Source of the DNA: a virus | Virus record (IMG/VR): IMGVR_UViG_3300036768_000767 | Span: 1 to 64,000 of that record | Strand: one strand, 5' to 3' | Length of the DNA: 64,000 nt | Shown here: in pieces, positions 5,822 through 58,658 of the stretch | How positions within the stretch are numbered: position 1 is the first letter of the stretch | How the letters are laid out: each line of letters starts with the position of its first letter | Program-made: the position numbers and the translations under genes | Notes under the pieces: model-generated | Told to the model about the DNA's origin: nothing | Seen by the model: only the letters and a program-made list of their open reading frames with translations | Databases searched by the model: none

Positions 5822-6283
5822 TCAGAAAGGAATGTTGTCGTCTTCCGGAATGACCGGGGCTGCAACGGGCGGCCTAGGAGCGCTACTAGTCTCCTTCCAG
5901 AGGATCTTCGTAACGACGTTCCGAGCTTCTCCCAGGTTATCCTTTTCAATGTCGACACGGATCCGGAACGGAATGCCGTGCAATATTGAGGTGTCCGTAA
6001 ATTGTGTCTTGCCGCAAGCTAGACCAATCTCCTTGAGCTCCTTGAGGCCAATCCGCTGTGTGATGACGTTCACGTGCTTGTAATTCACGTAATGCCAGAG
6101 CAAATACCCCTTGTACTGCCCGTCAAGCACTTGGAAGGTGAACTTCACGTACTTGCCGTTCCCCTTCTTGTTGTCACTCACTACGCTGTCTTCGATCGAG
6201 ACCGTGTAGTCCCCGGCGGGAATGGACGCAAAGTCGTCACTATCTGGGATAGAGTTAAAGTCGATGTATCCGATTTCAGCCAT
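5822..6283 (-). CDS. DUF669-type single-strand DNA-binding-like protein
   Basis: The 153-residue protein has an OB-like beta-rich core (AGDYTVSIEDSVVSDNK, then GKYVKFTFQVLDG) and an acidic C-terminal tip DDNIPF, the same type of tail that SSB proteins use to recruit partners. DUF669 proteins commonly sit next to Sak4 ATPases and helicases in phage genomes, as here. It probably coats single-stranded DNA during recombination-dependent replication. Confidence 0.85.
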   Translation of the reverse strand: MAEIGYIDFNSIPDSDDFASIPAGDYTVSIEDSVVSDNKKGNGKYVKFTFQVLDGQYKGYLLWHYVNYKHVNVITQRIGLKELKEIGLACGKTQFTDTSILHGIPFRIRVDIEKDNLGEARNVVTKILWKETSSAPRPPVAAPVIPEDDNIPF

Positions 6284-6294
6284 GTTTTTTCTCC

Positions 6295-7083
6295 TTACAC
6301 TTCACTCGCAAATTGTTCCTGCTTCCCTTGCTCGGGCCGCCAATCCGTGTACTGGAGAAAAGCGTCCCAATCGAACTGCTTCGGGAAAGGTAACTCATAC
6401 GGTAGGTCGAACCGGTTTTTTGCCTTGTGGCTCGGTCGCTCCTCCGTATAAATCACGCGCTGGCCGTTCCCCAAGCCCCTGACCCGCTTCTGGTTGAAGC
6501 CGAGTTCGTCGGTCTGGGTGAACACCCGGTAGTTCCCAAACAGCATCGCATCGGCCCACTCGAAGATCATGTCCTGAATGAGGTCATGACATTTGAGCGA
6601 ATACCGATCGTACGGCTCGATATCAGGGGAATCGTATCGCTCGATATCGCTGTGCCCGAGGAGCACGACCAACATCCCCCGGTCGTTTCGGAGCGCATCG
6701 AGGGCCTTCAAAACACGCTCGAAGTACGGCTCGGCCAGTTTGTAACCGCGCCCGAAGCTGGCGAAGATGTCGTCGCCCTTTTCCTTGCGAATCTCGCTGT
6801 GGACGATTTGCTCGAGCCACGAGATGGAATCCAGCACGACCGTCTGGTACTGGTGCCGTCCTCTGTAAAGGACCGTGAAGCACTCCATCACGTCGGCGAA
6901 AGAACGGGCAGTCGGAAACCGGGCATACTCGAGCTTCCCTATCCCATCCTCACACTGAACGAAGATCGGGTTCGGCGCTGAGGCCGCCCACGTCGTCTTC
7001 CCGATACCCATCGGGCCGTAAAAGACTAACCTGGGCGGTTTCCGCTCCCGACCGGTTTGAATCGATTCAAGGTTTATTGCCAT
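6295..7083 (-). CDS. Sak4-like RecA-type recombinase ATPase (AAA_24)
   Basis: The 262-residue protein carries Walker A GPMGIGKT at residues 23-30 and a Walker B-like TVVLDSISWLEQ near residue 75, in the compact RecA-core layout of phage Sak4 proteins. These act with an SSB partner in single-strand annealing and recombination; the DUF669 gene immediately downstream is the expected partner. The start has AAAGGAGG and overlaps the end of 7074-7502 by 10 bases, so the genes form one operon. Confidence 0.85.
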   Translation of the reverse strand: MAINLESIQTGRERKPPRLVFYGPMGIGKTTWAASAPNPIFVQCEDGIGKLEYARFPTARSFADVMECFTVLYRGRHQYQTVVLDSISWLEQIVHSEIRKEKGDDIFASFGRGYKLAEPYFERVLKALDALRNDRGMLVVLLGHSDIERYDSPDIEPYDRYSLKCHDLIQDMIFEWADAMLFGNYRVFTQTDELGFNQKRVRGLGNGQRVIYTEERPSHKAKNRFDLPYELPFPKQFDWDAFLQYTDWRPEQGKQEQFASEV

Positions 7084-43777: not shown

Positions 43778-44296
43778 GTGAGCCAGAACGGAAACGGCGG
43801 GGTATGCCTCGTGGTCTGCCTCGCCCTGGTATTCGTAACTGCCCGGGTTGAACGCGCTCCACACCTGGGCAAACTACGCTACCACGCACTTCGCATCTGG
43901 GGGATTCACACCACGCCGCCGCCAGAGGTGGTTGATGACGCCATCGACCGCGCAGCCGACGAGCACGGAATCCCCCGGAAACTGTTCCGGGCACTGGTCC
44001 ACGTCGAGAGTCGCAAGAATCCCAACGCAGTCTCGCCGAAAGGGGCGACGGGCCTCAGCCAGATCATGCCGGCCAATTCCAGGCGGTGCGGGCTGTCAAG
44101 CGCCCGCCAGCTCGAGGACGTCATCTTCAACGCCCGGTGTGGGGCTCAGATCTTAGCCGAGGAGTTGACTACCTACGGCGGCAACGTGACCAAGGCGCTC
44201 AAGGCGTACAACGGAGGGCCCAAGTGTGTGAACGGCGGGTGTAAAGAATCGGACGCCTATGCCCTGCGCGTTCTTTCTATCGCCAGCCGCGGCTGA
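43778..44296 (+). CDS. SLT-type lytic transglycosylase
   Basis: The 172-residue enzyme starts at GTG 43778 and has an N-terminal hydrophobic segment (VCLVVCLALVFVTA), so it is anchored or exported. The catalytic domain shows ALVHVESRKNP with Glu77 as the acid, GATGLSQIMPAN, and KALKAYNGGP. It cleaves peptidoglycan without hydrolysis. It could assist lysis or open the wall at DNA entry. It is the last late gene before the structured-RNA region. Confidence 0.87.
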   Translation: MSQNGNGGVCLVVCLALVFVTARVERAPHLGKLRYHALRIWGIHTTPPPEVVDDAIDRAADEHGIPRKLFRALVHVESRKNPNAVSPKGATGLSQIMPANSRRCGLSSARQLEDVIFNARCGAQILAEELTTYGGNVTKALKAYNGGPKCVNGGCKESDAYALRVLSIASRG

Positions 44297-44299
44297 ATG

Positions 44300-45240
44300 T
44301 GTAACGCTGAGCCTACCGACGACCCTTCACCAACTCCTCGGTAGCGCCGGGTGCGGGGAGACCTGCCCGCCCGGCACGAGGACGAACGAGCCATACAGCA
44401 AAGTTCACGCGACGACGGGACGGCGGCCGACGCGGGTAACCAACCCCGCCGAGGGGGCAGATGACCCACGTGGCGCTGTTACCTCGCCGAGACCCGGACC
44501 CCGTCACCCGCGAGGGCGGCGGGCAGATAGCTCAAGGGGATGAAGGCCGCGAGGCCGACTCGGGTGTGTGGACGATATAAAAAGCTACTCTTTTTATATC
44601 ACGGAGACGGGGCCAGACCGCGAAACGACGGGCGGGGGCGCGGTAACTCGGGGCTTGTGCGTTCTACCGAGACGGAAATCTCCATGGGAGGAAAGTGTTC
44701 GGCCGGGGAACCGGTCGGGATACTCCGCCCGTCCCGTGGCCGAAGAAGCCACTAGCGACGTGACCACCACAACGACGGCCGCACGACAAATCGGGACCCT
44801 CTCCCACGCAAGGACCGAAGGTTCTCGAGGAGAGGGAATGCGCGGTGTCGGTAGGACGCTCGGCGGGTTGAGGAGCGAAGGTGTTTCAGGGCCACACGGC
44901 GGGGCCAGCGGTTTAGGAAATGCGGTTCTACGAGCGATGCGGGCCAGCAGGGCAGTTGGCTGCATTCCCCGTCCTGGGGGGACGACAGCATCCACCGAGG
45001 GAGGTGGCGGTCATTTTCGTGCGCAGTACCACCCGGAAGGGGAATGCACGGACGTGGCCCTGAAGGTTATGGTCGGCGGCCCGGGGGAGCCTCTGCCGTG
45101 AGGCGGAAATCCCCCAACCTGATCTATCCTTGACGTGGAGCCGGTCGCCCGTGCGGGGCGAAAGGACCGGGGGGCCGGACAGGGGCTATTTCGCACCCGA
45201 CCCTTCGAGCACGCCCTGTTGGTAGCAGGGGGGGGGCTCC
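44300..45240 (+). ncRNA. Candidate large structured RNA
   Basis: About 940 bases lack a credible gene but are filled with stems: 44313-44319/44338-44344 (7 bp), 44346-44375, GGCC-GCGA-GGCC (44546-44557), an AT-rich 11-bp hairpin (44575-44601), and CCGG-GGAA-CCGG (44703-44714). Further along are CCCTCTCC/GGAGAGGG (44797-44804/44829-44836) enclosing another hairpin, and a long-range 9-bp stem 44962-44970/45039-45047 with two hairpins inside. A double hairpin lies at 45083-45115. The GNRA loops read GNRA only on the plus strand, which gives the orientation. Size and style recall large phage RNAs such as GOLLD or ROOL, but I recognise no known family. Confidence 0.55.
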
Positions 45241-45252
45241 GCTTAAAGACCT

Positions 45253-45936
45253 ATGACCCCGTACCTCGTCAAGTCGCCACGCCACCTCGTCCAACTCCTG
45301 GCCTGCAACATCCTGAACCGCGGCTACCTGTTCTACTGCACGTCCTGGATCCCGGACGGGAAGGACCCGCTGCCCATCGACGCCCGCCTCCTCCTCATCT
45401 ACTCCGCGCACCTGCCGAAGGAGAAGCAGTACCGCCGGCGGAAGGCCGGGCTCGCGTCGGTCCGGTATCTTCGCTGCGGCCAGCTCTGCGTGCTGCTCGC
45501 GACGAAGGGCCAGTCGCCGTTCTTCGAGCGCGAGGCGTGGAAGGACGTGCGCGAGGTACCGCTCCACATAGCCGGCTACAGCCTGCGAGTGGCAAAGGAC
45601 ACGGGCAAGGTCAGTGTCCGCATCCACGCCGAGGCCCAGAGGAAGATGCGGCGGGAGATGACCGAGAAGGCGGCGTGGGACGTCCGGTACTGGGAGGAGC
45701 GGATTCTCAACATCCCGTTCCTGGCCTTCAGTGGCGTGAGGGACAACGTGTTCGCGCTCGTGCGGCACCTAAACGCCTGCCGAAAGAGTCTGAGGAAGCC
45801 GCCGGTCGAGTGGAAGCGGTGCGTGCGGAAGCGGATCAAGCCGGAGCCGGTGTTTCTACCGACACCGCCGGAGGTCGATGAGGCGGTGAAGTGGTACGGT
45901 GGAGAGGTTGGTCGCGCACGGCGTAACCTTGAGTAA
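45253..45936 (+). CDS. Protein of unknown function beside the structured RNA
   Basis: A 227-residue basic protein beginning MTPYLVKSPRHLVQLLACNI, with FYCTSWIPDGKDPLPIDARL and a C-terminal LRKPPVEWKRCVRKRIKPEP. The plan (beta-rich start, basic helical end) suits an RNA- or DNA-binding protein. It is the only gene adjacent to the RNA candidate and on the same strand, so a functional link is worth testing. No ribosome site better than GACCT-type sequence is seen before the ATG. Confidence 0.6.
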   Translation: MTPYLVKSPRHLVQLLACNILNRGYLFYCTSWIPDGKDPLPIDARLLLIYSAHLPKEKQYRRRKAGLASVRYLRCGQLCVLLATKGQSPFFEREAWKDVREVPLHIAGYSLRVAKDTGKVSVRIHAEAQRKMRREMTEKAAWDVRYWEERILNIPFLAFSGVRDNVFALVRHLNACRKSLRKPPVEWKRCVRKRIKPEPVFLPTPPEVDEAVKWYGGEVGRARRNLE

Positions 45937-58165: not shown

Positions 58166-58366
58166 ACCGCGATGAAGGTATCACATGCGTGATGGTCTGG
58201 TAGCGAGTGAAGTGCGGGTGCCATTACGCTAAAGTCGGACCTGTGACACTATCAGGGTATGGCATTCTTCCTCCGCCATGTCCTCCCGTTCAATCTACCC
58301 TGCCAGGGGTAAATACACTTTTCGCGCCAGCAATCGGGCGCAGCACACAAGACAAATCAGTTCGTT

Positions 58367-58446
58367 CGGAAAGTAGGGTAATGGCTCATCCTGGGCTAAC
58401 GTGGCTTTGGACCACGAGACTGCCGGTTCGAGTCCGGCCTTTCTGA
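58367..58446 (+). tRNA. tRNA-Gln(TTG)-like gene with enlarged D region
   Basis: Acceptor CGGAAAG (58367-58373) pairs with CTTTCTG (58439-58445) with one G-U. The anticodon stem CGTGG/CCACG holds the loop CTTTGGA with anticodon TTG, and the T arm GCCGG/CCGGC is perfect. The D region is about 4 bases too long (26 bases between acceptor and anticodon stems), so function is likely but not certain. Confidence 0.65.
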
Positions 58447-58452
58447 TCAAAT

Positions 58453-58550
58453 GGCGAGATGGTGTAACGGCAGCCGCGCCCGGCTCAGGCCCGGGTATCT
58501 TCGGATGTGGGAGTTCGAGTCACTCTGACGCAGGTTCGAGCCCTCCCGCC
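58453..58550 (+). tRNA. tRNA-Leu(CAG)-like gene, irregular
   Basis: The anticodon stem CCCGG/CCGGG with loop CTCAGGC (anticodon CAG) is perfect. GGCGAGA at 58453 pairs with TCCCGCC at 58544 except for one A-C mismatch. The region between anticodon arm and T arm is longer than normal for tRNA-Leu and contains two TTCGAG T-loop-like sequences (58514 and 58535). It could be a degenerate tRNA or two fused pieces. Confidence 0.45.
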
Positions 58551-58560
58551 CCAGCCACAC

Positions 58561-58633
58561 GGTGTCGCTAGCTCAACGGCTAGAGCGCCGGGTTGTGGCC
58601 CCGGAGACTGCGGTTCGATTCCGCAGCGACACC
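58561..58633 (+). tRNA. tRNA-His(GTG)
   Basis: A complete cloverleaf: G-1 (58561) facing C73 (58633), acceptor GTGTCGC/GCGACAC, D arm, anticodon loop with GTG in GGGTTGTGGCCCC, and T arm CTGCGGTTCGATTCCGCAG. CCA is not encoded. The extra G at the 5' end is the identity mark of tRNA-His. Confidence 0.92.
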
Positions 58634-58658
58634 CCATCGTCCTCCCGGCTTATGCCTC

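Follow-up and report, generated by a model that had tools for sequence, protein, structure and literature searches.

A putative derivative of circularly permuted group II intron RNAs in a phage genome, without a recognisable domain 6 and next to an acpG gene

The stretch of DNA analysed here (the window, 64,000 nucleotides) comes from a virus record of 66,340 bases that has genes for portal, terminase, tape measure and primase proteins. Between a transglycosylase gene, which has no relatives among viral contigs, and a gene starting at position 45253 lies a long gap (Table 1), described in a first-pass annotation as about 940 bases without a credible reading frame. This description is borne out by codon usage: every open reading frame overlapping the gap has a negative score (-2 to -54), and real genes score positive. 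A protein-coding reading of the gap was discarded, as no open reading frame there has coding-like codon usage. The AT skew within the gap is about +0.18, an excess of A over T that is expected for a structured RNA on the plus strand. Two other regions of this otherwise dense genome, 42430-43340 and 54825-55638, also have little or no confident coding, and tRNA genes for Arg(acg) and His(gtg) are located at 58366-58636, inside a 1.2-kb gap between predicted phage genes.

Table 1. Features of the RNA-acpG locus, in window coordinates.
Feature	Position	Strand	Details and evidence
SLT transglycosylase gene	43778-44296		Pfam SLT, E 7e-23; 5' neighbour of the gap
Noncoding gap	44297-45252		956 bases, 65.7% GC; between the transglycosylase gene and the 45253 gene
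D6-less circularly permuted group II RNA (putative), whole conserved extent	44304..45125 (approximate ends)	+	Conservation with L002, L164 and L063; 214-pair consensus, 68 covarying
Domain 5 catalytic hairpin	44344..44377	+	CGC triad 44345-44347, GAGA loop, 2-nt bulge; RF00029, descriptor, covariation
Site of D6, branch-point A, 3' splice site and linker in relatives	44378..44408	+	31 nt in the window, with none of these elements
GCGAC, corresponding to the GGGCG 5' splice site at the D1 start	44409..44413	+	4/4 phage-type RNAs; GGGCGA in relatives
Conserved D1 motif ATAGCTCAA	44527..44535	+	Alignment of 30 RNAs
AT-rich hairpin (GATATAAAAAGCTACTCTTTTTATATC), D1 insertion of about 25 nt, this copy only	44574..44600	+	Gap in all other sequences
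Loop CTTGTGCGTTC, EBS1 position	44654..44664	+	Complementarity scan in non-phage RNAs; invariant in 4/4 phage RNAs
Conserved core motif (C)TAGCGACGTGACC, 3' side of D1	44753..44766	+	Alignment
Conserved motif GCAGGGCAGT, D2/D3 part	44947..44956	+	Alignment
acpG homologue, 227 aa, maturase-like partner (predicted)	45253..45936	+	hhalign to Thermus AcpG; AlphaFold; PDB fold matches

The folding energy of the gap is barely below that of shuffled sequences (z = -1.4 on the plus strand and -2.0 on the minus strand), so that the existence of a structure needed comparative proof. The layout of the RNA recurs in three other phage-type loci, namely L002 (in IMGVR_UViG_3300044994_000102), L164 and L063, and in more than 30 loci from planctomycetes, cyanobacteria and other sources. 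In all four phage loci, an open and intact acpG gene lies directly 3' of the RNA and in the same orientation. The noncoding stretch preceding acpG in L002 is 71% identical to its counterpart in the window over 497 columns. A consensus fold of the four phage-type RNAs has 214 pairs, 94.1% of which are formed; double-sided changes occur in 68 of these pairs, compared with 29 after shuffling and 8-11 when the partners are slid, a large margin even though the structure was derived from the alignment on which it was tested and is hence biased in its favour. For domain 5 (D5), 98.4% of the cells are paired in 24 sequences, 9 of the 14 pairs change on both sides, and the covariation score and pairing were reached in 0 of 500 shuffles. 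Apart from its lost splicing end, the phage RNA is under selection to keep its pairs. The conserved part comprises about 820 bases, the final 125 or so before the 45253 gene lying outside it. The initial proposal of a plus-strand structured RNA is therefore upheld by conservation in a second phage and by strong covariation, the test proposed with it, and the individual stems named at that stage are present, including the AT-rich hairpin and a GGAA-capped stem.

No Rfam family matched the gap at gathering thresholds. A permissive scan gave one match, to group II intron D5 (RF00029), of 28.6 bits at 44342-44408, which is below the cut-off of 40 bits. We regard this weak match as genuine because related RNAs that precede the gene for the same protein reach more than 40 (49.4 in L005, 47.6 in L004, 47.4 in L019 and 45.8 in L010); in each of these loci, the match is at the 5' end of the noncoding stretch before the AcpG gene. 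The match to a D5 descriptor is the only one in the window, and the CGC triad, present instead of AGC, is also found in many relatives that carry domain 6 (D6). Full-length alignment with such D6-bearing RNAs places D1-D4-type sequence downstream of D5, the borders of the single domains being unmapped. The order D5-D1-D2-D3-D4, together with the AcpG gene, leads to the published class of circularly permuted (CP) group II RNAs (Roth et al. 2021, PMC8637638), reported in the main text without a known role and with D5 before all else as its signature. The Thermus reference plasmids have the arrangement D5-D6-linker-GGGCGAC, the same layout as described for the class. To judge from sequence, the region is a derived CP group II intron RNA, and a D6-less derivative rather than a full member because a defining feature, a D6 with a branch adenosine, was looked for and is absent.

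This assignment changes what is new about the locus. The RNA had been put forward as undescribed, with the proviso that a match to a known family would remove novelty; it does lack an Rfam match at curated thresholds, but its weak D5 match proved to be real and its class is already known, so that most of the novelty is gone; what is still new is its occurrence in a phage and the loss of D6. In the literature that was searched, including the main text of PMC8637638, the class itself is described, whereas neither the phage variant nor the AcpG fold has a precedent. When phage and plasmid collections were searched with the region by blastn, only chance matches resulted. Like the CP group II RNAs of that main text, the phage RNAs have D5 first, followed by D1-D4, an internal 5'-splice-site motif, a length of about 900 nt and acpG, which is often near; the non-phage relatives additionally share D6, the linker, GGGCGA and EBS1/IBS1. 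Unlike the CP group II RNAs of PMC8637638, the phage clade is devoid of D6, the branch A, the 3' splice site and the linker, and has a CGC triad. With a canonical bacterial group II intron and its maturase/reverse transcriptase (RT), the locus shares D5 (RF00029), D1 features and an RT-like partner protein, but the order is permuted, D6 and a YADD RT are absent and no gene is interrupted.

AcpG is known as a protein associated with CP group II RNAs, frequently but not obligatorily encoded near them, for which the main text of PMC8637638 reports no known homology. L002 encodes a relative of the 45253 protein with 60% identity. A profile built from 41 sequences from this work matched Thermus AcpG (the TTHC007 family, taken by size and position as the 259-aa pTT8 protein at 6164-6943) with a probability of 93.3% and an E value of 2.7e-7 over 165 columns; a smaller set gave 9e-5. 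The phage proteins resemble TTHC007 also in being encoded beside the RNA, and differ in that their genes are co-oriented and directly 3' and in the group II RT fold predicted here. Pfam, NCBIfam and PHROGs gave no convincing family match, and matches to L22 among PDB sequences were weak (E 0.006). AlphaFold models of the window AcpG and of a cyanobacterial AcpG reached pLDDT values of 90.8 and 95.5, respectively. With Foldseek, the top five PDB folds for the former (8t2r, 8t2s, 6ar1, 8fli and 8h2h; best E 2.2e-4) and the top four for the latter (8t2s, 8t2r, 8fli and 6me0; best E 0.013) are group II RTs, the likeness being partial, with a TM to query of about 0.42-0.49 for the best RT matches. 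Comparing its profile with those of ordinary RT proteins yielded no usable signal, and hence the idea of a maturase rests on folds. The YADD catalytic motif is absent from 13 of 13 aligned AcpGs; from secondary structure and sequence we infer that a beta hairpin, VRYLRCGQLCVLLA, would occupy the place of RYADDFVIL in intron RTs, without the aspartates. With moderate confidence, AcpG is probably a dead RT kept as a maturase. Its predicted likeness to maturases offers a testable answer to the identity of AcpG and to how CP RNAs may fold in the cell.

The family extends well beyond phages. Plasmids from Leptolyngbya, from Calothrix and from a planctomycete encode relatives of AcpG, in each case preceded by 1.4-1.7 kb in which no gene is annotated. 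Among 95 genomes from the family to which a Gemmataceae MAG belongs, 15 have AcpG, as do 8 of 392 from its phylum and 2 of 292 in a draw from a cyanobacterial phylum; within the Gemmataceae family set, genome G778 accounts for six matches to acpG. With a 34-nt descriptor, D5 was located in 27 loci at a distance of 0.75-1.43 kb upstream of AcpG, and a nucleotide profile detected RNA homology at 12 further AcpG loci. Complete CP group II RNAs that carry D6 and are accompanied by acpG are present in L005, L010, L013, L016, L035, L036, L040, L051 and others, on plasmids and chromosomes of Planctomycetota and Cyanobacteria. The 2021 paper does not name these phyla in its main text; the carriers given there are plasmids and chromosomes of Deinococcus-Thermus, Firmicutes and Proteobacteria, and phages are not mentioned. 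The widened range (Planctomycetota, Cyanobacteria, one Paracoccaceae MAG and phages) provides many new sequences for study. Searches of viral contigs with the patterns AGCTCAACCA, TAGCGACGTGACC and CTTGTGCGTTC added L164 only. In the part of pPNAP05 (a plasmid named in PMC8637638) that was inspected, the CP RNA was not located. Near-identical acpG genes at L011:4001-4600 and L012:4001-4600, from a Gemmataceae MAG and an 'Acidobacteria' MAG, have no CP RNA nearby; one of these MAGs may be misassigned.

In 32 non-phage RNAs, some of them close copies, D5 is followed by D6 (about GA.GGAGGC...TTCTA.CC.AT), a linker and GGGCGA, and in most of them 64-125 nt separate D5 from GGGCGA. In the four phage-type RNAs, the distance from D5 to GCGAC is about 23-31 nt, and no D6, branch adenosine, 3' splice site or linker is recognisable in any of them. 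The linker of 15-86 nt between the 3' splice site and GGGCG was not recognised in the window, where GCGAC alone is kept, and a D5-D6 pattern search of viral contigs found nothing. The phage AcpGs form one clade (support 100/100), so a single loss of D6 is enough. With the branch nucleophile and the circle-forming linker gone, branched or circular products would not be expected by the known route (Roth et al.). As the splicing end is deleted in the phage clade and the rest is under selection, circle making does not appear to be what is selected there. A further acpG locus, L038/L170 (G273:C2), has an RNA that looks partly degenerate around D5-D6 and keeps GGGCGACC; it groups loosely, on a long branch, with the phage clade.

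Scanning D1 of the non-phage RNAs for complementarity to the GGGCGA flank picked out a loop, CTTnnnnnTTC, as the expected EBS1. In a set of 22 RNAs with close copies removed, 13 have at least 5 nt of EBS1-IBS1 pairing against 7.7 expected from permuted partners, and 15 of 2000 permutations were as high. No IBS1 complementary to EBS1 was found beside GCGAC in the window or L002; in L164 and L063, 5 bp between EBS1 and the GCGAC flank are possible. D5, with its bulge and GNRA-type loop, the GCGAC site and the EBS1 loop are among the best-kept parts of the phage RNA.

On balance, our best guess is a non-splicing, phage-borne CP group II ribonucleoprotein. A phage CP group II intron RNA would have lost its splicing end and retained the remainder, and RNA and AcpG would work jointly, AcpG being a shrunken, catalytically dead group II RT whose sole task would be that of a maturase, an RNA-folding partner. 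The likeliest remaining chemistry would be hydrolytic cleavage, at GCGAC or of an EBS1-paired target, because D5 and the EBS1 loop are kept and the branch nucleophile is gone; a purely structural role would be the next possibility. The benefit to the phage may lie in control of mRNA in its lysis region or in action on other nucleic acids. It is conceivable, but we consider it unlikely, that a D6-less catalytic RNA held by AcpG as a dead RT cleaves RNA or DNA chosen by the fixed EBS1 loop GUGCGUUC, as a weapon during infection or as a regulator.

The loss of the splicing parts, most simply once in a phage ancestor, and the adjacency of RNA and acpG on the same strand in four of four phage loci would equally suit a catalytically dead RNA with a structural or regulatory role, such as scaffolding AcpG or, as a leader, controlling acpG in the lysis region. 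We find this doubtful, though it deserves serious attention, as the elements relevant to catalysis are among those best kept. Distinctly unlikely is a normal CP group II ribozyme that still splices, with D6 shrunk to a tiny hairpin after D5 (GACCGAACGGTC in L164 and L063, GACGACAGTC in L002). Three of the four phage RNAs would allow a stem of 3-5 bp immediately 3' of D5, GCGAC is kept in all four, and the 5-nt pairing of L164 and L063 would fit; however, the stem is not evident in the window copy, there is no bulged adenosine or recognisable 3' splice-site context, and the spacing from D5 to GCGAC is far shorter than in relatives. GOLLD and ROOL are large structured RNAs that often occur in phages, and the first-pass annotation had noted a resemblance to them. 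Size, phage setting and the lack of an Rfam match at gathering thresholds would agree with a new giant phage RNA class of this kind, but homology to CP group II RNAs along the length, with D5 and AcpG, refutes it, and neither Rfam scan gave a score for a GOLLD or ROOL model; we give it hardly any credence. A decayed remnant without function, as the missing D6 and the 25-nt insertion in D1 might suggest, is just as improbable given the compensating changes in 68 pairs across four widely diverged copies and the intact acpG in each.

The host of the virus is probably a planctomycete bacterium. The fourth phage-type member, L063, is on a 10-kb contig of a genome from the Gemmataceae family set, and nine window proteins have matches on this contig, which therefore looks like a prophage or phage and indicates Gemmataceae hosts. 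Just 3' of acpG in two of the phages, at L164:5690-5760 and L002:8715-8775, there is a near-identical hairpin followed by T's (CCGCAACAGGGGCCGGACCTCTGTTGCGGCGGTTTT), which is likely to be a shared terminator closing the RNA-acpG unit.
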